Source: Alphaproteobacteria bacterium
GTDB lineage: Bacteria > Pseudomonadota > Alphaproteobacteria > Parvibaculales > Parvibaculaceae
DNA length: 58,006 nucleotides
Direction: 5' to 3'
NCBI GenBank assembly: GCA_021775935.1
Contig: JAJFGY010000065.1
Location: 1 to 58,006 of the forward strand
Under the pieces are notes generated by a model, which worked only from the letters and a program-made list of their open reading frames with translations, had not been told where the DNA came from and searched no databases. Of the stretch, positions 33,318-52,813 are shown one piece after another. Every line of letters starts with the position of its first letter. The stretch's first letter is position 1. The translations under genes were made by a program, and so were the position numbers.

Positions 33318-34787
33318 TTAGCGATCTGCCTCGGCAAGCTCAGCCCGCTCTTCTTTCACAAAGAGCATCAGGAGCATCCCGCCGACGAGCAACAAAAGCA
33401 CGGATCCAAAACCAACGCGCTGGCTTTCTGAAAGCGCTGTTGCGACACCAACAAGCAACGGTCCAAGAAACGCTGTTGCAGTGCCGGACAAAGCATAGAG
33501 GCCAAAGAATTCAGACATCTTTTCAGGAGGCGCAATGCGCGCCAACATGGTGCGGCTGTTTGCATAGGCCGCGGTAATGAAGATCGCAATCAAGATCACG
33601 ACTGTGACATACGCAACTTCGGGAACCGTGCGGAAGAAGGGCAGAGACCAGAGGGGTTCTGCCGCCGCAGCGTCATAGGAAAAAAAGAAAATTTCATTGG
33701 GCGTCATAGAAACCGCGAGCAACAATCCAAGCGACGTACCGCCAATGGAAATCAGGATTGCGTTGCGCGAGCCAAAGGTATTGTCGAGCCAGCCTCCAAA
33801 GAAGCCGCCGGCCACCGCAAAGACGGATAGGATGACACCATAAATGGTGAGCGTGAGCGGTCCCCATCCAAAAACACCCGCGGCATAAACACCGCCGAAA
33901 ATGAGCACGGCAGTTTTCCCATCATTGTAGAACATGCGGGCAAAGAGATAGAGCGCGACATTGCGATAGTGCTTGAGGCCCTTGACCGTTCGCACAACAG
34001 AGTGCAACCCGTTTTGGATCGCATCTTTGGCGTTGGCGCCCCGCGCTGCTACGTCAGGTGTGAAGAAAATGAGCGGCAGGGAAAAAATCGCCATCCAAAT
34101 GGCGGCAATCGGCCCCGCGATGCGACTATTCTCATGAGCCGACACATCAAGCCCAAAGAGCGCCACAGAAGGCACAAAACTCCAATCCACAACACCGGGC
34201 AACGTGAAGGCGATCAACATAAAGATCAGGATCAGGAGCGAACTCAAATTTCCAAGCGCCAGCCCAAGCCCGGAGAGACCCGCAACCTTTTTGTGAGGGG
34301 CCACATAAGGCAGCATCGAATTGTGGAAGACAGCAGAGAACTCAAACGCCACATTTGCGATGATAACAAGCGCAGCCGCTCCCAGTATGCCAATGCCTGC
34401 ATCCATCGGAAGCGCGAACCACATGGAGAAGGTTGCCATTGCCATAATGGCGACAAAGGAAACGATCCAGGGTTTGCGCCGCCCGCCGCTGTCGGCAATC
34501 GCCCCTAGTAACGGCCCCAAGAGAGCGATGACAAATCCGCCAATCGCATTGATGTTCCCCCAGATCGCTTGACCGCGCACCGGGTCACCCACCACATGGG
34601 TCGAAAAGTAGGGCGCAAAAATGTAGATCGTAATGAGGATCACGTATGGATTGCGCGCCCATTCAAAGGTTGCCCAGGAGATCTGGCCCTTTGTGTCGGC
34701 AGGTTCCCCGCCCACAGCGGAGAGAAGCTGCGCACTTGCCTCGCCCGGCACTTGCACACGCACCGGTTCATCATCCTGGATACTCAA
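33318..34787 (-). CDS. MFS transporter, UMF1 (Atg22-like) type, copy B
   Basis: The protein of about 489 residues has roughly twelve membrane spans and the UMF1 pattern: WATFEWARNPYVILITIYIFAPYF, GFVIALLGPLLGAIADSGGRRKPW and FHNSMLPYVAP. It is about 64 bp downstream of a clear paralogue (34851-36251). I favour the TTG at 34787 because GGGGAG stands 7 bp before it; in-frame ATGs at 34817 and 34841 lack one. Substrate unknown; fungal Atg22 exports amino acids. The pair may form a heteromer or serve two substrates. Confidence 0.9.
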   Translation of the reverse strand: MSIQDDEPVRVQVPGEASAQLLSAVGGEPADTKGQISWATFEWARNPYVILITIYIFAPYFSTHVVGDPVRGQAIWGNINAIGGFVIALLGPLLGAIADSGGRRKPWIVSFVAIMAMATFSMWFALPMDAGIGILGAAALVIIANVAFEFSAVFHNSMLPYVAPHKKVAGLSGLGLALGNLSSLLILIFMLIAFTLPGVVDWSFVPSVALFGLDVSAHENSRIAGPIAAIWMAIFSLPLIFFTPDVAARGANAKDAIQNGLHSVVRTVKGLKHYRNVALYLFARMFYNDGKTAVLIFGGVYAAGVFGWGPLTLTIYGVILSVFAVAGGFFGGWLDNTFGSRNAILISIGGTSLGLLLAVSMTPNEIFFFSYDAAAAEPLWSLPFFRTVPEVAYVTVVILIAIFITAAYANSRTMLARIAPPEKMSEFFGLYALSGTATAFLGPLLVGVATALSESQRVGFGSVLLLLVGGMLLMLFVKEERAELAEADR

Positions 34788-34850
34788 TGGTCGCTCCCCT
34801 GGTTTGGGAGAGAGCATGGGCGAGGAAGGCCCGGGATGCAAACCCGGCCT

Positions 34851-36251
34851 CTAGGCAGCCCCGCGTTCTTCTCGAACCGGCAACAGCAAGGCAAATCCGA
34901 CCAGCAAAAACACCACGACGACAAAGAGGCCTGCCCGCTGGCTGTTGGCTGCACTTGTCGCCAATGCAATTACGAAAGGCGCAACAAAACTTGTTGCTTT
35001 GCCAGAAAGAGCATAAAGACCAAAAAACTCGGTCATCATCTCTTTGGGAGCCAATCGGGCCATGAAAGTCCGGCTGGCTGCCTGCGCAGGACCGCCGCTA
35101 ATGCCGATCAACACACCCGCCAGCATGTAAACCTGTTCACCTGTACTCATAAAAGGTCCAGCCCCGGGGACGGGTGGGGGCACCGCTATGAAAAAGAAAA
35201 TCGTGTCTGAAGTGATCGAGACAGAGGCGAGCGTACCAACAACAAGACCTGCGACGGCAACAAGGATCGTGCGCTTGGAGCCAAACCGGTCATCCATCCA
35301 GCCGCCTAGGAAAGCCCCGATGGCTGCGAAGATGGAGAGCACAATCCCAAACAGAGCCAGGGTTGTGATCTCCCATCCAAATGTGCCTGCTGCGTAGATA
35401 CCGCCAAAGGCAAAGATCGCCGACAGGCCGTCATAATAGGTCATCCGCGCAACCAGAAAGAGTCCGATATTTTTGTAAGAGCCAAGCTTCGCCACAGTGG
35501 CGCGAAGCTGCGCAAGCCCACCGCGAATTGCCGCACCCGCTTTAACCCGAGTGCGCGGAGCATCTGGCGTTAGCAGAAATATCGGCAAAGAAAAGAGCGT
35601 ATACCAGAGCGCTGCAAGCGGTCCGGTAAAGCGCTCAGCTTCGCGCATCACAGGATCAAGCCCAAAGAGCGGTTCAATGCCGATCATCGTGACGCCGCTT
35701 TCAACATCCGCCACAAGGAACATCAGGACAAAGAAGAGCGCCGCAAGCCCGCCCACATATCCAATCCCCCAACCAAAACCCGACAGCACACCCATACGCT
35801 TTTCAGGCACCAGGGTCGGCAGCATGGCGTTGTAGAAGACAAGCGCGAACTCCATGCCCAAAGCAGCACAGACAACGGCACCCATGACAAAGCCAGGTCC
35901 GTCAGGTGCACCGGGCAACGCATTCCACAAAAGCGCCGACCCGATGACAAAGAGAATGGAGAAGAAAACGAGCCAGGGTTTCCTGGCGCCCGTCTGGTCA
36001 GCAACCGCCCCCAGCAACGGGGAAGCTATGGCAATACCAAGTCCCGCGATGGACTGGGTATAGCCCCACAGAACCTGACCTTGAACCGGATCGCCGATAA
36101 AACCAGACGCAAAATAGGGGGCAAAGATGAAGGTCGTAATGAGCGTAAAATAGGGTTGGTTGGCCCAATCAAAAAACGCCCAGCTAAACTGCCCGGCACG
36201 CGAGGCAACCGGGCCCCCAACAGCATTTCGTTCCCCACCTGACTCAGACAT
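34851..36251 (-). CDS. MFS transporter, UMF1 (Atg22-like) type, copy A
   Basis: The 466-residue paralogue of the neighbour shares WAFFDWANQPYFTLITTFIFAPYF, IASPLLGAVADQTGARKPW, FYNAMLPTLVP and the late ASRTFMARLAPKEMMTEFFGLYALSG. About twelve spans are visible. Gene order and strand make it the upstream member of a two-gene operon. The two proteins are similar throughout, so the pair arose by tandem duplication followed by considerable divergence. No substrate can be inferred. Confidence 0.92.
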   Translation of the reverse strand: MSESGGERNAVGGPVASRAGQFSWAFFDWANQPYFTLITTFIFAPYFASGFIGDPVQGQVLWGYTQSIAGLGIAIASPLLGAVADQTGARKPWLVFFSILFVIGSALLWNALPGAPDGPGFVMGAVVCAALGMEFALVFYNAMLPTLVPEKRMGVLSGFGWGIGYVGGLAALFFVLMFLVADVESGVTMIGIEPLFGLDPVMREAERFTGPLAALWYTLFSLPIFLLTPDAPRTRVKAGAAIRGGLAQLRATVAKLGSYKNIGLFLVARMTYYDGLSAIFAFGGIYAAGTFGWEITTLALFGIVLSIFAAIGAFLGGWMDDRFGSKRTILVAVAGLVVGTLASVSITSDTIFFFIAVPPPVPGAGPFMSTGEQVYMLAGVLIGISGGPAQAASRTFMARLAPKEMMTEFFGLYALSGKATSFVAPFVIALATSAANSQRAGLFVVVVFLLVGFALLLPVREERGAA

Positions 36252-36345: not shown

Positions 36346-37335
36346 ATGGAAATTCTACTATCGGCAGATGGGGCGAGAGCTTTAGGAGAGCGCTTTTCGG
36401 CCATGGGCGGGATCACACCCATCTTGTTTCAGCGCGATGGCACTCTGACCCGAGAGGGCAAGGAAGTCTCGCGGGACGAGATCAGTCCTAAAGGTTCATG
36501 GCTCAGCCTTGACGTTCTCATTACCAAACGCGTCTTTGACTATGTGGACCACATCCTGAACCTCCCGTCACTGGAATGGGTACAATCAACAGCTGCCGGT
36601 TTCGACAATCCTCTCTTTGTGGAGATGGCTAAGAAGGGGATGCGCCTCACCAATTCTGACGCCCAGGCTGTTGCCATTTCAGAATTTGTTTTGGGGTCCG
36701 TCCTGGCCGAATTTCAAAACCCCACTGCCCGGCTTCAAAAACAAGCGGAGAAAAAATGGGAAGGCATTGGCTTTCGGGAAATTGCCGGTACCACCTGGAT
36801 GATTGTCGGTATTGGCAATATTGGTAATGAAGTTGCAAAACGGGCCCGCGCTTTTGATGCGCACATTATTGGGGTGAAACGGACCGGCGAAAGCCCGGAG
36901 GCTCACGAAACCATCCGACCAGCAGACATGAAAGCACGGTTGCCGGAGTGCGATATTGTTGTCTTCACAAGTCCGCTCAATAAGGAAACCCATCACATGG
37001 GGGATGCCGCCTTCTTTGCGGCAATGAAAAAGGACGCAACCTTTGTCAACATCGGGCGCGGTGGATTGGTAAACGAAACAGAGCTTATTTCAGCCCTCGA
37101 CAATGGAACACCAGCTGTTGCGATCCTGGATGTGTTTGAGACCGAGCCCCTGCCCGAAACAAGTCCGCTATGGGATCATCGCCGTGTGCGCGTGACACCG
37201 CATTCATCCCCGAAGACAGATGGCACACAACTGCGCGCCCTGGATCTGTTTCTGGAAAATCTCGCAGCCTTCGTAAAAGGCGCACCCCTTCGAAATGAAG
37301 TACCTTCCGCAACCATCATTGGGTCGGCGGCATAA
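36346..37335 (+). CDS. D-2-hydroxyacid dehydrogenase family protein
   Basis: The 329-residue protein has the NAD-binding motif MIVGIGNIGNEVAKRARAF (a GxGxxG variant), NKETHHMGDAAFF, VNIGRGGLVNE and ILDVFETEPLPETSPLW, with the Arg-Glu-His catalytic set (Arg in INIGRG region, Glu, and His in VTPHSS). Members reduce 2-keto acids such as glyoxylate, hydroxypyruvate or aromatic keto acids. It starts at the ATG at 36346 after GGGGCAGGA; the open frame upstream is the shadow of the divergent MFS gene. It overlaps the LysR gene by 20 bp at the 3' end. Confidence 0.92.
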   Translation: MEILLSADGARALGERFSAMGGITPILFQRDGTLTREGKEVSRDEISPKGSWLSLDVLITKRVFDYVDHILNLPSLEWVQSTAAGFDNPLFVEMAKKGMRLTNSDAQAVAISEFVLGSVLAEFQNPTARLQKQAEKKWEGIGFREIAGTTWMIVGIGNIGNEVAKRARAFDAHIIGVKRTGESPEAHETIRPADMKARLPECDIVVFTSPLNKETHHMGDAAFFAAMKKDATFVNIGRGGLVNETELISALDNGTPAVAILDVFETEPLPETSPLWDHRRVRVTPHSSPKTDGTQLRALDLFLENLAAFVKGAPLRNEVPSATIIGSAA

Positions 37336-38203
37336 TCTGCCCTTCCAGGCGGGCTTTAAGGTAGTCCTTCCGCCCAATCACAAACCGTCTAAATTCACTG
37401 ACCCGGGCTGTCGCACGTAAATCGCGGTGCGACAGCAACCAGATTTGCATGCGCGGCGAAGGCTCCGTAAGCCGGACAAATTCAGGAACCGCGTCTCCGG
37501 CAAAACAGGGAAGCATACCGATACCAAACCCGGCTTTGGCTGCTTCAACTTGCATGGGCAATTGATCAAACCGACCGACCGTTTGCAGATGGGGATAGGC
37601 ACTGCGCGCAACCCAGCGCTCCCGGTGGGCAGCGTCACCAAACCCAACCCAGCGTGCGCTCTTGCTTGTCTCAAGCGGCCCATGCGCATCAAGATAGTCT
37701 GGGGTCGCATAAGCCGCATCATGAAGGACGCCAAGCTGCCGCCCGATCAAATGTTCCGGCGGATTGTCTGTAAAACGAATGGCGATGTCTGCCTCACGCT
37801 TTGAAAGATCAAACGTACTCCAGCTTTCATTCACTTCCAGATTAATGGAGGGATATGCCGCCATAAATTCCAGGAGGATCGGCCCCATCAAATACATGGC
37901 AAACATATCCGGCAAGGTTACCATCAGCGGGCCAGCGAGCTCCTTATCCGCACCGCGCACCTGACGTTCGACACCCAACAGGTTATTCTCCATCGTCTGC
38001 GCAACCGGGAGCAGAGCCTCTCCAGCTCGGGTGAGCTCGAACCCGTCACTCCGCCGCTCAAACAGACGCGTATCGAAATCAGCCTCCAGGGACTCGATCC
38101 GCCGGGAGATGGTCGTGTGGCTCACCCGAAGCACTTTGGCGGCCGCCCGCATGGAGCCCGCATCTGCTGCTGCCAAAAAGAGGCGTAGATCGTCCCAATT
38201 CAT
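37316..38203 (-). CDS. LysR family transcriptional regulator
   Basis: The 295-residue protein has a LysR helix-turn-helix (LRLFLAAADAGSMRAAAKVLRVSHTTISRRIESLE, residues 6-40) and a periplasmic-binding-like effector domain. It is convergent with the hydroxyacid dehydrogenase and divergent from the ECF41 operon. The 264-bp spacer to the right carries the ECF41-type promoter and presumably the promoter of this gene. Whether it regulates either neighbour is not evident. Confidence 0.93.
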   Translation of the reverse strand: MNWDDLRLFLAAADAGSMRAAAKVLRVSHTTISRRIESLEADFDTRLFERRSDGFELTRAGEALLPVAQTMENNLLGVERQVRGADKELAGPLMVTLPDMFAMYLMGPILLEFMAAYPSINLEVNESWSTFDLSKREADIAIRFTDNPPEHLIGRQLGVLHDAAYATPDYLDAHGPLETSKSARWVGFGDAAHRERWVARSAYPHLQTVGRFDQLPMQVEAAKAGFGIGMLPCFAGDAVPEFVRLTEPSPRMQIWLLSHRDLRATARVSEFRRFVIGRKDYLKARLEGQIMPPTQ

Positions 38204-38396: not shown

Positions 38397-38423
38397 TGTC
38401 ACAAGAGCCCTCACTGGCTCGTC
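38397..38423 (+). promoter_or_regulatory. ECF41-type promoter of the membrane protein-CMD-sigma operon
   Basis: TGTCACA (38397-38403) is followed after exactly 16 bp by CGTC (38420-38423). This is the consensus -35/-10 of ECF41 sigma factors. It lies 45 bp before the GTG start at 38468, leaving space for a short leader and the AAGGAG site at 38456-38461. The operon's last gene is an ECF41 sigma factor, so this looks like positive autoregulation. Confidence 0.8.
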
Positions 38424-38467
38424 ATATGTGCAAGGCGGCCAAAACCGCTGATCTAAGGAGCTCCAAA

Positions 38468-38848
38468 GTGGCCAAAATCGTCCTCGGTGTCATAGCCGTC
38501 ATCTACGTGATAAACGCAATCATCATGTGGTTCGCGCCTGTGTACTGGTACGAAACCACCCCGGGCGTCGCCATGATGGGCCCCTTCAACCTGCATTTTG
38601 TGCGCGACATTGCGTTGATCTATCTCCTGGCAGGCGTCGCCTTTGCCTGGTCGGTCAAAAACAACACACCACAGGTCGCCATCACAGCGGCGGTGTGGCC
38701 GTGCCTCCATGGCCTTTTCCACATTCAGATCTGGATTGCTCGCGGGGTGCCGCTCGATGAGATCGCTCTGGTCAATCTGGTCGGCATACAGTTTCCTGCC
38801 TGGGCGGGCCTCTATTTCGCGACACGACTTGCATCCTCAAAGGAGTAA
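38468..38848 (+). CDS. Four-helix membrane protein of the ECF41 operon
   Basis: The 126-residue product has four predicted transmembrane helices (VLGVIAVIYVINAIIMWF; FVRDIALIYLLAGVAFAW; VAITAAVWPCLHGLFHIQIW; IALVNLVGIQFPAWAGLYFA). A conserved-looking RD and several His/Trp residues lie in the spans. I recognise no family. The start is GTG at 38468 because AAGGAG stands 6 bp upstream and the ECF41 promoter ends just before. It is 3 bp upstream of the AhpD-like gene, so all three genes form one unit. Confidence 0.75.
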   Translation: MAKIVLGVIAVIYVINAIIMWFAPVYWYETTPGVAMMGPFNLHFVRDIALIYLLAGVAFAWSVKNNTPQVAITAAVWPCLHGLFHIQIWIARGVPLDEIALVNLVGIQFPAWAGLYFATRLASSKE

Positions 38849-38851
38849 CCC

Positions 38852-39397
38852 ATGATCCGCTGGCTTCTGCATCTTGGAACCCGTTCCATGGAGCGCAAGA
38901 CGAACTATGACGCGGGCTATATGCACGATGTAATCGACACATCGACTTCTGCCGGATTGAAACTGGCGCTCTTGCCGCTTCTCTCCCAACACAGAGAAGA
39001 CGCGCCCAAACCACTGTGGTTCGGCGCGGGCCTCGCCTCTGTCCTGGAGGGAGACTGCGGACCTTGCGTGCAGCTCATGGTCGACCAGGGACTGTCTGAA
39101 GGGGTCGACCCAGCCCTTCTGCGCGCAATTCTTGCGCGAGACTTTGACGCCATGGGCAATGAAGCAGCACTTGGCGTTCGGTTCGCCGAAGCTGTTATTG
39201 CAGGCAACATGGAAAGCGAAACTCTGCGCATGGAAGTGGAGCATCGCTTTGGCAAAAGAACAGTGATTGCGCTTGCCTACGCCACCGCCTTTTGTCGCAC
39301 CTACCCCGTCTTGAAGCGTGGCCTGGGCCACGGTCTTGCCTGCCAGAAAATCAATGTCGGCGACAAGGTGGAGACCGTGATAAAAAAGGCTGCATGA
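38852..39397 (+). CDS. AhpD-like/carboxymuconolactone decarboxylase family protein
   Basis: The 181-residue all-helical protein carries LEGDCGPCVQLMVDQGL, a CxxC active-site pattern of the AhpD/CMD fold, where the thiols reduce peroxides or the site acts on lactones. This is the class of enzyme known to accompany ECF41 sigma factors (CMDs, oxidoreductases or epimerases). It ends in ATGA overlap with the sigma gene, indicating coupled translation. Confidence 0.82.
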   Translation: MIRWLLHLGTRSMERKTNYDAGYMHDVIDTSTSAGLKLALLPLLSQHREDAPKPLWFGAGLASVLEGDCGPCVQLMVDQGLSEGVDPALLRAILARDFDAMGNEAALGVRFAEAVIAGNMESETLRMEVEHRFGKRTVIALAYATAFCRTYPVLKRGLGHGLACQKINVGDKVETVIKKAA

Positions 39398-40308
39398 ACG
39401 ACACCGCACCAGATACCGCAACTACCACGTTTGAACAGGAACGCGGTCGACTGACTTCTCTTGCATATCGCATGTTGGGGGAGCGGGCGGCCGCCGAAGA
39501 CGTTGTGCAAAACGCCTGGTTGCGCTGGGCCGGCACGGACGAAACGGAGATCAAAACCCCCGCCGCCTGGCTCACCACAGTAACGACACGGCTCGCAATT
39601 GATGCCCTTAAAAGCGCACGCCACAAACGTGAAGTCTATACCGGCATCTGGTTACCAGAGCCCATTCTCTCTGAAACTGACACCCCCCAATCCACACCTG
39701 AAGATCAAGTCGCCGAAACACAGGAAGTGCAGCTGGCACTCCTCTGGGCGATGGAACGCCTGGCACCTGATGAACGAGCGGCCTTCATTCTCCGTGAGGC
39801 ATTCGACACGGACTATGAAGACATCGCCTCAATGTTAGAAAAATCTGAAGCCGCCTGCAGGCAGCTCGTTGCCCGGGCAAAGAAACGTGTCAGTGAAGAA
39901 AGCCCCAGGTTTGATGCATCGGTTGCTGAAGTTAGTGACCTCTTGCTCCGCTTCATGAGCGCGGCACAAGCGCACAACAAGGAAGAAATTCTCTCGCTTC
40001 TCGCCCCCAATGCCCTCGCCCTGTCGGACGGCGGCGGCAAAGTCCGAGCCGCCTACCGGCCCCTTGTCGGGCCAGGTGATATTGCAGATGTCTTTATGGC
40101 TTTGCTTGAAAAGAATGCGAAGATTCTAGCGCCAAGGATAGTTCTGGCGAACGGCTTGCCTGCTGTCGTGTCGCTGCAAGAAGACACCGCATCAGACGTT
40201 ATTATCAGCGTCGTCCCAGGTGAGGATGACCTGATAAAGTGGATCTATGTGATGCGCAATCCTGACAAGCTCGACCGCGCATCACAAGACATCAAACCTA
40301 CCGCCTGA
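39394..40308 (+). CDS. ECF41-family RNA polymerase sigma factor
   Basis: The 304-residue protein has sigma region 2 (TSLAYRMLGERAAAEDVVQNAWLRW), region 4 (ERAAFILREAFDTDYEDIASML) and a C-terminal SnoaL-like extension. Three ECF41 signatures are present: WLPEP in the linker (residues 86-90), DGGGK (212-216) and NPDKL (289-293). In this group the fused extension, instead of a separate anti-sigma factor, regulates activity. Start is ATG at 39394, overlapping the CMD stop. It ends with an 11-bp overlap on the convergent membrane gene. Confidence 0.95.
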   Translation: MNDTAPDTATTTFEQERGRLTSLAYRMLGERAAAEDVVQNAWLRWAGTDETEIKTPAAWLTTVTTRLAIDALKSARHKREVYTGIWLPEPILSETDTPQSTPEDQVAETQEVQLALLWAMERLAPDERAAFILREAFDTDYEDIASMLEKSEAACRQLVARAKKRVSEESPRFDASVAEVSDLLLRFMSAAQAHNKEEILSLLAPNALALSDGGGKVRAAYRPLVGPGDIADVFMALLEKNAKILAPRIVLANGLPAVVSLQEDTASDVIISVVPGEDDLIKWIYVMRNPDKLDRASQDIKPTA

Positions 40309-41017
40309 CCAGCATGGTCGTCCGGGCTTCTGCCATGAAAATAAGGTTCGCATGCAGGAAGAGGGTCAGCCCCAACATCTCCATTGCTTCTTCAATGCTC
40401 GTCGAGATGATCTGAAGCAAGCTGCCCTGGCCATACCTACTCTCAAAGAGCGCATCTAACGGCTCAAGCCCCAGCGCGCCGCCGACATAGATCGCACCTG
40501 AGATCACAAACAGGATCGCAATGTGCCGGGGCAGATCAAAGAGGAAGGGGATAAGCAGTGCCACAAACCCTGCGACGAACGCGGCCCCGAAAAAGATCCA
40601 GGGATTAAAAAAGATCCCTGTCAGCTGAAAATGTTCGCGAAGCGGCACATCCACAGTCTCGTGAAACCCGACAGTCTCATCAATGGAGAGCAAGAAAAAG
40701 ACCGCGGCGATGAAAACCCAGCTGTACGAAACGAGCCCGTCCCTTACCCGGTCCTTATGCCAATTGATGAACGCACATGCAGCGATCAGCACCATCAAAG
40801 CACTTGAATACCAGGCACCCAGATTGCGCTCTGCATCCAGCGCGAAATGTCGCAAGTCTCGTAGAACAGTCTCCGTCCCCACCTGATGGACAAAGACTTC
40901 ACGCAACACCCCAAGCGCAATAACCATTGCCGTCGCCATATAGGCGTAGCGCACAATGTCGGAGGGGATAACAATCGAAACCCCACGCCACCGCGAATAT
41001 GCTTGTACAAAACTCAT
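40298..41017 (-). CDS. Membrane protein of unknown function
   Basis: The 239-residue product has about seven hydrophobic spans (for example MATAMVIALGVLREVF; ALMVLIAACAFINW; VFIAAVFFLLSIDETV; FFGAAFVAGFVALLIPFLF; IAILFVISGAIYVGG) and conserved-looking Glu/His positions in DETVGFHE and EEAMEMLG. This pattern occurs in alphaproteobacterial membrane proteins of unknown role. ATG at 41017 is chosen over the in-frame TTG two codons earlier because GGGAG stands before it. No partner is apparent. Confidence 0.8.
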   Translation of the reverse strand: MSFVQAYSRWRGVSIVIPSDIVRYAYMATAMVIALGVLREVFVHQVGTETVLRDLRHFALDAERNLGAWYSSALMVLIAACAFINWHKDRVRDGLVSYSWVFIAAVFFLLSIDETVGFHETVDVPLREHFQLTGIFFNPWIFFGAAFVAGFVALLIPFLFDLPRHIAILFVISGAIYVGGALGLEPLDALFESRYGQGSLLQIISTSIEEAMEMLGLTLFLHANLIFMAEARTTMLVRR

Positions 41018-41251
41018 ACCCAACTCCCTATGGACGGGGCATGCCTCATGTTCAAGGTGCCCCGCTGCCAGCTCTCTGCACCAGTCGTGCCAGTCCCCAG
41101 ACCTAAAAGTTGCTGAATTCTTAAGAGAGGCCCGTCACTTGTCCCAAACCGGGACAGAGGGCAGAGATGCCTGTGCCCCATTGGGGGATTAACGCTGCCT
41201 TGACTTCCAGCGACTAAGAAGAAGGAACGGCATAAAACTTGCGGAAACTGG

Positions 41252-49384: not shown

Positions 49385-49558
49385 ACTTTAGATCTGGGTA
49401 TTAACCAGCCTGAAGAAAATGGGTGTTTCTGTAGTGGATCCAGCTGAGTTAATTTGACTCACTCACCCTCTTCTCTGTTAATACCCTGACAAGCCTGACC
49501 ACGCGCAGTCTGACGCGATGCGCGCCTCTTCTGGTTGGGTTTTCAGGGGGTATTGTCT

Positions 49559-52500
49559 GTGAGTAATACGAGCCGCAATATGTCTGGCCACCGCCTGGCA
49601 TTGATGCTGTCGACTTCTGTCTTGTCGATGGGCGCCTATGGGCATCTGCGCTCTGCGAAAGCAGCCAACGAATGTGGCATCATTGCTCCCGGTGGCACGG
49701 CCACCTGTACCCCTGCAGGCAACAATTTTGTCGGCGGCATCGACTATGACGTGAACAACGCGACAATTATTGTCCAAGATGGTGTCATTGTCAGCACGAC
49801 CGCAAACAACACGTCAGCGATCGCAAACGGCGCCGGTGGCGTTGATCTGGGAAACCTCACCACGACGACGCAAGGCACCGTCAATCTGACGACTACGGGC
49901 GATGGTTCGCTCGGCATCTCCACTGGGTCTGGCGGCGGCAATTCTTCAACGGTCACAACCAGCGCCGGCACGACAATAACAACCTCTGGCACAGGCTCAC
50001 ATGGGATCGGCGCCTATAACGGCGCAGCGGGTGGAGCCATCACCATCACCGCGCCTGGAGCAATTTCGACATCTGGCGCAGGCGCGATAGGCATTACGAC
50101 GCTAAACTTTGGCGGGGCAACGACGATCAATGCAGGCACCATATCGGTCACCGGCGCAGGTCCCGCATTTGGCATTTATGCGGTCTCCTTCGGGAGCACG
50201 ATTGATGTCACCACCTCCGGCGTCTCGGTCACCAACGGGTATGGCATATATGCCCTGGCGTCTGGCGCGGGCGCCGGTGCGGTTAACGTCACCACAACCG
50301 GAGCTGTTTCCACAGGAAGTACCGGCATAATAGCTGCCTCACAATATGGTGACGTGACAGTCAATGCGGGAAGTCCTGTGACAACGACAGGCGCAGGCGC
50401 GTCTGCGATTAACGCTTTCGGAACGACGGGCAATGTAAGCGTCACCTCATCGGGTGTAACATCCAGCGGTGTTGGCGGATACGGCATTTACGCGCGCAGC
50501 ACGACAGGCTCAATCAGCCTGGCGGACACGGGCACGATCACAAGTGGCGGTTACGGGATCTATTCACGGTCGACCGGTAGCGCAACCACCATCAATGTCA
50601 ATAACATCGCCGCAAGCAATGGCTATGACGCTATCTATTCCATCAGCCAGACCAATCTGTCAGTGACCGCGAGCGGCCTCCTGACAGCCACGGGCGCTCC
50701 TGATGCTGATGGCATCCAGGGCGTCGCCATAACCGGTACCCTGACTGTACAGGCTGCAAACATCACTGCCGATGATGACGGCATCAATGTCTATGGCGGC
50801 GCGGGCGCAACAGTGACCACGACCGGCACAATCACCGCGGGAGACGAGGGCATTGAGGTGGTTACCGCAGGCGCTGGTAATGCGGCAGTGACTGTCAACA
50901 ACGTCACGGCCACTGGCGTAAACAATGACGGCATTCGGGTTACTGCTGGTGGCGCAGCTTCTGTCAACGTGAACGGCGCAGTGCTCGGCGGATCAACGTC
51001 AGGCGCGGGCGCAGGGATTGATGTAAATGGCAGCACGGCCACAACCATCACCATCAGTGGTACGGGCTCTGTCGGCTCCATGTCCGATTACGCGATTGAG
51101 ACGGTAGGTGCTGGCGCAACCACCATCAACAATAGCGGCACAATTACCGGTCGAATCACGCTCACCGGCAATGATGACGTCATCAACAACCTCTCCTCCA
51201 ACAGCATCAACCTGCGCCGGTTTACCGACACAAATGCCGATGGGGTTCGCGACACGGAAGCTATCGGCGTGGTCATCTTTGGCGCGGGCAACGACACGTT
51301 CAATAACGCGGCGACCGGTACCGTCCGCGTATCGACCGTGACCGGCGCAACCGCTTTCAATACAGCCAACGAGACCTTTGCGACCGGCTCTGCCGCACTG
51401 TCGATCACAAATGCCGGCATCGAGCAGGGTCATATTGTCGGACTGGAAACCTTCATCAATTCAGGCACGCTCACCCTTGCAGATGCTGAGACCGGCGGCA
51501 CAACTGCTGTGGCAGGTGACGTTCTGGCCATTACGAGCCTTGGTGTTCCAGGTGCTGGTGGCACATCGAACTTCATCTCCAACGGCGGCCAGCTTCATCT
51601 CGACACAGTGCTGGATACAGGCGCTATCGACACAACAGACGTTCTTATTCTTGATAGTGTGACAACGGGCGCAGGTGGGGCGACCGGGATTACGATCACA
51701 GATGCAGGCGGCGCTGGTGGTATTACCGGAACCGGAGCCACAAACGGCATTCGGGTTGTCGAAGTTCGCGGTGTCGGCTCGGCGAGTGATGCGTTCACCC
51801 TGTCCCGGGCCGTCGTTGGTGGCGTCTTTGAATATGAACTCAACCAGGCAGACGGACAGAATTGGTACCTTCAGTCTGACGGTTCCTTCGCGCGACAGAT
51901 CCCGGCCTATCAGGCGCTCCCGCTCGCACTTGCAGGCTTCGCCCGCGATCAAATGCCCTGGGCGCAAAAGCGCTGGGGTCATGTCGAGGGCATTCAGGAA
52001 GCAAAGACAGGTGCGTGGTTGCGCGGTGGCTATGTGCGCGGCACGGAAGAATTCGGCGGCACCCGTCAATATGAGGCCCGTGATCGGTTTGCCCAGGCGG
52101 GCTATGATGTGGTTCTCGATACTGGTCTGCCAGGTCACTTCAGCATCGGTGGGCTTCTTCAGCACACATCCACAGATACATCTCTCACCAATGGCAATGG
52201 CTCAACATTTTCTGCAAGTGGGTATGGCGCCGGGCTGAGTGCTTACTGGACAAACAATGCCGGACTGTTCCTCGAAGCGCTTGCAACACTTACCCGGTAT
52301 GAGGTTGAGATCGACCGACAGAACCTGGCCGATGTCGCAGATACGGACGCCTACACCTATGCGGCGGGGCTTCAGATCGGCCATCAGTTCCATGTGGCGG
52401 GCACGAGAGATCACTGGACAGTCACACCGCGTGCATCGTTCACATTCATCGATAGTGACATAGACAATTTCACCGACGCATCGGGCATCGCGGTCGACTT

Positions 52501-52813
52501 TGCCGACAGCGACAGCATGCTGCTGGAAGCCGGAATGGTGAGTGGTCTTGACCTCGACCTGCAGGGCAACCGCATTCTGAACCTCACTGCAGAGATCGGC
52601 ATTGAGCACAATCTCCTGGGCGAAAACTCAGTTACCGCCAACGGCACAAACTTCTCCGCAGACCGCGACAATACAAGAGTGACATTTGGTGCAGGGGCCA
52701 CGGCGCATCTGGGAGACGGGTTTTCTCTCTTCGTCCGCGCGGAAGGACGGGCATCTCTCGCCGGTGAGGGTCATTCTGAGCAAGCATCTGCCGGGGGACG
52801 CATTACCTTTTAG
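49559..52813 (+). CDS. Type Va autotransporter with GYGIY-repeat passenger
   Basis: The protein of about 1084 residues (GTG at 49559 with AGGGGG upstream) has a signal peptide ending LRSAKA-ANE, a Gly/Thr/Ser/Asn-rich passenger (about 40-780) that reads as a beta-helix, and a C-terminal 12-strand barrel (about 800-1084) ending in the terminal Phe of GGRITF. The passenger has recurring GYGIYA/GYGIYS blocks about 30 residues apart. Such proteins are exported and displayed on the outer membrane as adhesins or enzymes. There is no obvious catalytic motif. A TGAGT-N7-ACTCA inverted repeat stands at 49445-49461 upstream. Confidence 0.9.
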   Translation: MSNTSRNMSGHRLALMLSTSVLSMGAYGHLRSAKAANECGIIAPGGTATCTPAGNNFVGGIDYDVNNATIIVQDGVIVSTTANNTSAIANGAGGVDLGNLTTTTQGTVNLTTTGDGSLGISTGSGGGNSSTVTTSAGTTITTSGTGSHGIGAYNGAAGGAITITAPGAISTSGAGAIGITTLNFGGATTINAGTISVTGAGPAFGIYAVSFGSTIDVTTSGVSVTNGYGIYALASGAGAGAVNVTTTGAVSTGSTGIIAASQYGDVTVNAGSPVTTTGAGASAINAFGTTGNVSVTSSGVTSSGVGGYGIYARSTTGSISLADTGTITSGGYGIYSRSTGSATTINVNNIAASNGYDAIYSISQTNLSVTASGLLTATGAPDADGIQGVAITGTLTVQAANITADDDGINVYGGAGATVTTTGTITAGDEGIEVVTAGAGNAAVTVNNVTATGVNNDGIRVTAGGAASVNVNGAVLGGSTSGAGAGIDVNGSTATTITISGTGSVGSMSDYAIETVGAGATTINNSGTITGRITLTGNDDVINNLSSNSINLRRFTDTNADGVRDTEAIGVVIFGAGNDTFNNAATGTVRVSTVTGATAFNTANETFATGSAALSITNAGIEQGHIVGLETFINSGTLTLADAETGGTTAVAGDVLAITSLGVPGAGGTSNFISNGGQLHLDTVLDTGAIDTTDVLILDSVTTGAGGATGITITDAGGAGGITGTGATNGIRVVEVRGVGSASDAFTLSRAVVGGVFEYELNQADGQNWYLQSDGSFARQIPAYQALPLALAGFARDQMPWAQKRWGHVEGIQEAKTGAWLRGGYVRGTEEFGGTRQYEARDRFAQAGYDVVLDTGLPGHFSIGGLLQHTSTDTSLTNGNGSTFSASGYGAGLSAYWTNNAGLFLEALATLTRYEVEIDRQNLADVADTDAYTYAAGLQIGHQFHVAGTRDHWTVTPRASFTFIDSDIDNFTDASGIAVDFADSDSMLLEAGMVSGLDLDLQGNRILNLTAEIGIEHNLLGENSVTANGTNFSADRDNTRVTFGAGATAHLGDGFSLFVRAEGRASLAGEGHSEQASAGGRITF

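Follow-up and report, generated by a model that had tools for sequence, protein, structure and literature searches.

ECF41 sigma factors are widespread, and their regulon was thought to amount to a single COE operon; according to its title, a study in Azospirillum is said to report that motility is controlled by an ECF41 factor. The combination of an ECF41 factor, a COE partner and a TGTCACA-N16-CGTC promoter is well described. In the loci studied by Wecke et al. 2012 (R. sphaeroides RSP_0606 and B. licheniformis ydfG), a sigma factor with a fused C-terminal extension and a WLPEP linker is accompanied by a COE-type partner behind this promoter, and a genome-wide search recovered the COE and ECF41 genes as the only conserved regulon members, other neighbors being mentioned mainly as hypothetical proteins (PMC3426412). 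The conclusion drawn there was that each such factor governs just one target or operon (PMC3426412). The RpoE9/SMb20029 locus of S. meliloti likewise consists of a CMD gene followed by that of an ECF41 factor, with a TGTCACA-type promoter and a mapped transcript start, and the CMD gene is the single, canonical target (PMC6180224). The locus analyzed here has the same fused extension, WLPEP linker, COE-type partner, promoter type and order of CMD before ECF41, but differs from those of Wecke et al. in that a small membrane protein (MEM) is encoded first, the partner is a long CMD protein with a DCGPC motif, and a second CMD gene is predicted as a target in trans; no MEM is described in the S. 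meliloti system. What is known is extended by a MEM family that recurs both in cis and in trans, by the clade of long CMD proteins and by a conserved second CMD target, and no description of them, of DUF4345 or of ECF41 membrane neighbors was found in the literature searched, many subscription papers being outside its reach. A conserved membrane partner and conserved trans targets offer two new handles on the signal and purpose of ECF41.

The operon lies in a 58,006-nt stretch of alphaproteobacterial DNA, hereafter the window, and its layout can be read directly from the sequence and its ORF translations. The MEM gene (38468..38848, + strand) runs from a GTG start to TAA and encodes a 126-aa four-helix membrane protein; it is followed by the long CMD gene (38852..39397, + strand; 181 aa), and then by the ECF41 sigma factor gene (39394..40308, + strand; 304 aa), which overlaps the CMD gene by ATGA. 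Gene order and overlap are exactly those of the three-gene unit described in an earlier note on this DNA. The MEM start at 38468 is supported by the presence of ATG at the equivalent codon in four aligned relatives. A Shine-Dalgarno sequence (AAGGAG, 38455..38460, + strand) lies 7 nt upstream of the GTG, and AAGGAGCT is kept in the three closest relatives. A divergent LysR-type regulator gene upstream (37316..38203, - strand) is not thought to be part of the operon, while a convergent uncharacterized ORF downstream (40298..41023, - strand; 241 aa, membrane-protein-like) overlaps the 3' end of the sigma factor gene. A search against Rfam gave no match.

This sigma factor belongs to the SigJ type of ECF41 proteins and is full-length. 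It matches NF007214 over residues 7-296 with 308.8 bits (cut-off 271), contains sigma regions 2 and 4 (Pfam Sigma70_r2 and r4_2), and aligns with the M. tuberculosis SigJ structure (5xe7; E 2.8e-47), with which it shares its architecture, although in the window protein this alignment spans only residues 11-254. Regions 2 and 4 are joined by a linker that reads GIWLPEP and includes the WLPEP motif named for ECF41 (PMC3426412). A SnoaL-like C-terminal extension of about 100 residues is indicated by its motifs, the span of the NF007214 match and the 5xe7 alignment to residue 254; a separate Pfam match to SnoaL was absent from the sigma factor. DGGGK and NPDKL both fall within the extension, and we take them to be ECF41 extension motifs, following the earlier note, which had listed them with WLPEP as three marks of the family; all three are present in the translation. 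With a CMD-fold gene directly upstream, overlapping by ATGA, and a cognate promoter before the operon, the ECF41 identity, promoter and CMD-type partner given in that note are borne out. As to its view that the fused domain takes the place of an anti-sigma factor, no anti-sigma domain was recognized among the operon neighbors scanned, but MEM itself is uncharacterized.

The ECF41-type promoter, TGTCACAAGAGCCCTCACTGGCTCGTC, occupies exactly 38397-38423 on the + strand, with the -35 element TGTCACA at 38397-38403, a 16-nt spacer and the -10 element CGTC at 38420-38423, 44 nt before the operon; both position and spacing are as first noticed. The consensus is the same as that published for ECF41 (PMC3426412), and the transcript is expected to start at about 38428-38432. 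The bare count of motif copies was rejected as evidence. Two exact matches occur in the window against 0.02 expected, the second of which (51638-51664, - strand) lies inside, and on the opposite strand of, an autotransporter-like ORF and is a chance copy. A genome-wide scan, suggested in the earlier note, yielded six exact matches against four for a backwards control, showing that the motif alone is not specific and that its few exact copies are mostly due to chance; single unconserved sites therefore carry no weight. The operon site, in contrast, is conserved: its core (11 positions, -35 plus -10) does not vary among the five Rhodobiaceae aligned, whose spacers are 66% identical. Moreover, the motif is found with at most one mismatch within 300 bp of 45 of 57 ECF41-linked MEM loci (38 exact), with 0.2 expected from scrambled motifs; most of the loci lacking it belong to sphingomonads, in which an NmrA/SDR-like gene comes first and bears the motif in the loci read. 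The invariant core beside a diverged spacer, together with the motif before most ECF41-linked MEM loci, makes the operon promoter credible.

One might argue that a different promoter drives most transcription of the operon and that the motif is incidental, given that exact matches arise by chance elsewhere in the genome, both within coding regions and upstream of genes that appear unrelated. A case in point is a site upstream of an electron-transfer flavoprotein oxidoreductase-like gene (contig C290, L006 1501-1527; L209), which was rejected as a target: it is exact only in the window's genome and in G009, its -35 element carries a single mismatch in G143 and FE80, and it lies about 127 nt from the gene in generally conserved sequence, including the spacer. 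That site is probably incidental. For the operon, such a reading is very improbable in view of the core conservation in five species and the recurrent placement upstream of MEM genes; a search for a sigma-70-like promoter upstream of the operon also gave no match, and transcript starts have been mapped behind the same motif in R. sphaeroides, B. licheniformis and S. meliloti (PMC3426412, PMC6180224). For other sites in the window's genome (L001, L003), neither G009 nor G143 has an exact match upstream of the corresponding gene. At the first of these (contig C72, L001 1501-1527), the exact motif stands 32 nt before a 150-aa hypothetical gene with a CDVCVGCGC motif.

The product of the second gene had been taken for an AhpD/CMD protein with a CxxC motif. 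The fold stands: Foldseek matches its AF2 model (pLDDT 90.9) with probability 1.00 to 3lvy, 2gmy and 6e8l (E-values about 0.04), and the closest solved relative of its family profile by sequence is the debrominase Bmp8 (6ohi; E 2e-5). The CxxC pair (C69 and C72) is also present, but the family motif CxxCxxxH is replaced by DCGPC, with no histidine at +4 in any of 18 aligned members, and the window protein has no Pfam family above cut-off, hence no PF02627 match, whereas 10 of the 18 members match PF02627 at E <= 0.1 (best 5.8e-5). Further differences from the CMD/AhpD family are extra N-terminal helices and an invariant C164; across the 18 aligned members D68, C69, G70, C72 and C164 are invariant. 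By alignment and predicted fold, then, this protein belongs to a divergent CMD-fold clade that lacks the AhpD histidine. The long CMD occurs in 23 genomes of our class sample, all 23 of which carry ECF41. In two of the genomes examined (G266, L103; G211, L104), the long CMD gene, accompanied by MEM in the former, bears the ECF41 motif while the sigma factor gene is on another contig, which points to ECF41 action in trans.

Such action is also suggested by a second CMD gene in the window's own genome. On contig C227 an exact copy of the motif lies 44 nt before a gene for a canonical AhpD-like CMD protein of 147 aa (CAYCVNMH). This unlinked CMD gene has an orthologue in four relatives (G143, G009, FE80 and SP61), where the exact motif lies 34-41 nt ahead of the start codon, and across these five genomes the core is 100% and the spacer 50% identical. 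No ECF41 gene was found near it within the loci fetched from these genomes. In the more distant Rhodobiaceae MAG NORP32 (G611; L124), the orthologous canonical CMD gene is directly followed by a second ECF41 gene, and a separate locus comprises the promoter, MEM and the long CMD with an adjacent ECF41 gene of its own. This suggests that the other genomes lost the second sigma factor gene and kept the CMD target with its promoter; in this simplest history, the retained target is presumably now served by the window ECF41. The congeners G009 and G143, both with 100% estimated completeness, have one ECF41 above cut-off each, while a second ECF41 could be absent from the window's assembly because that assembly is 88% complete. 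The published single-target view (PMC3426412) counts against a trans target. Nevertheless, the pattern of conservation indicates that the window sigma factor very probably switches on this distant CMD gene. The description of the regulon as self-contained in the earlier note is thus not supported, since a conserved exact site precedes an unlinked CMD gene with no neighboring sigma factor gene.

To place MEM we scanned 84,980 species genomes with a subset of seven MEM sequences, recovering 111 relatives, of which 80 were kept. Contrary to its initial description as new to such a locus, MEM recurs as the first or an early gene of ECF41 operons across Alphaproteobacteria. The order MEM-long CMD-ECF41 is seen in Rhodobiaceae, Hyphomonas and Zongyanglinia, MEM-ECF41 with no CMD in Methylobacterium, and SDR-MEM-ECF41 with a divergent CMD in sphingomonads; elsewhere MEM is paired with CMD apart from any linked sigma factor gene, or stands alone. 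In the class sample, MEM is present in 20 of 289 genomes, and 19 of these 20 also carry full-length ECF41, as against 49 of the 289 overall (Fisher 1.3e-15); the comparison proposed at the outset came out in favor of an association. Genomes with an unlinked MEM carry ECF41 in five of six cases (p 1.4e-4); both p-values are indicative only, as the sampled genomes are related. By its genomic distribution, MEM is a partner that accompanies ECF41 time and again in Alphaproteobacteria. Two relatives come from records labeled as other phyla, a Myxococcales MAG (L137) and an Actinobacteria MAG (L174), with 49% and 33% identity, respectively; the ECF41 of L174 falls among sphingomonads in the tree, which suggests contamination or transfer.

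The earlier note had proposed a membrane signal input, in which MEM would be a sensor that inhibits or activates ECF41 directly or via its C-terminal extension. Autoregulated operons often include the regulator's own sensor, MEM is often the leading gene of the operon and an immediate neighbor of the sigma factor gene on one side or the other, sometimes with no CMD as in Methylobacterium, and its co-occurrence with ECF41 is strong. These features make a sensor possible, but the distribution disfavors it: 30 of the 49 ECF41-bearing genomes in the class sample have no MEM, and linkage to MEM, mapped onto a tree of 91 ECF41 sequences, switches 10 times, at least 6 of the switches being forced by starred branches. 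Such gain and loss of MEM beside a sigma factor that is itself conserved disfavors an obligate sensor role. MEM is also found with CMD but no linked sigma factor, or alone, and a lone MEM gene can bear an ECF41 promoter as a target would. An ECF41-type motif is seen before four of 34 lone MEM genes (G123, G227, Caulobacter segnis and Sphingomonas asaccharolytica; three exact and one mismatched), against 0.07 expected by scrambling, and all four genomes have ECF41 elsewhere; an antisense control gave two of 34 at one mismatch and none exact, and the other 30 lone genes have no such promoter. Finally, the predicted structure of MEM, essentially four helices joined by short loops, leaves no cytoplasmic domain to which a sigma factor could bind. 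We accordingly regard the sensor as unlikely, and MEM is best read, from its genomic contexts, as a target or effector of the ECF41 regulon.

The AF2 model of MEM (pLDDT 93.8) has long helices at residues 2-22, 42-65, 68-91 and 98-119. Only four residues are invariant in the family, namely H43 and D47 (HFxxD) and H81 and H85 (HxxxH), and in the model the first pair sits where the second long helix begins, the second pair close to where the third one ends. As these helix ends are on one membrane face in an antiparallel hairpin, they are likely to form a single polar site, which the positive-inside rule would place in the periplasm. Resting on the four invariant residues and the predicted model, a metal or redox-cofactor site is the likely interpretation. 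MEM had no Pfam match above cut-off, its score against DUF4345 being 12.4 bits against a cut-off of 26.5, whereas three members of its family match the DUF4345 profile weakly (best 2e-4). A sequence search of solved structures gave no match, and Foldseek gave no structure match at E <= 0.001; the most plausible of its weak matches is NACHO/TMEM35A (probability 0.92, TM 0.56/0.54; E-values not significant). The weak profile match and the Foldseek resemblance together constitute a likeness to DUF4345/NACHO, from which the window MEM is set apart by falling below the curated DUF4345 cut-off. Could MEM be a small exporter or importer of the substrate of the CMD enzyme? It is a small four-helix membrane protein, apparently co-transcribed with the enzyme, and its weak Foldseek similarities to varied four-helix proteins include an SMR family transporter (6wk5). 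That match, however, has a probability of 0.21 and a TM-score of 0.27-0.31, and the invariant histidines and aspartate, placed where transmembrane helix 2 begins and shortly before helix 3 ends, resemble a cofactor or catalytic site more than a transport path. A transporter appears less likely even than the sensor. Tentatively, MEM may instead found a new family of small membrane proteins with a redox or metal site (three histidines and one aspartate) that work with CMD thiol enzymes. It would then be a core part, so far undescribed, of the ECF41 regulon of Alphaproteobacteria, both in cis and in trans, either supplying the enzyme with electrons or shaping the signal perceived by ECF41.

Taken as a whole, the observations are probably best explained by an autoregulated ECF41 operon with an additional CMD target in trans, in which MEM and the CMD proteins are effectors. 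The sigma factor would be held in check by its own fused SnoaL-like extension until the latter responds to a signal, probably a small molecule. Once active, it would drive transcription of its own gene and of those for MEM and the long CMD from the TGTCACA-N16-CGTC site, and would also act in trans on the distant gene for the canonical AhpD-like CMD. That both promoters depend on this factor is what we infer, as are the nature of the signal and what MEM and the long CMD do. As thiol enzymes, the CMD proteins may act on oxidants or electrophiles, MEM being their small membrane partner, in which H43, D47, H81 and H85 would form a metal or redox-cofactor site. The four invariant polar residues of the MEM family are open to mutation, and the small regulon of MEM, long CMD and canonical CMD can be tested jointly for the stress that it relieves.

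Two other features of the window deserve mention. The autotransporter-like ORF (49535-52813, + strand; 1092 aa) has long degenerate G/T/S-rich repeats and a C-terminal β-barrel-like end. On the - strand, at 33318-36251, two adjacent and similar multi-helix transporter-like ORFs of 507 and 466 aa apparently arose by tandem duplication.
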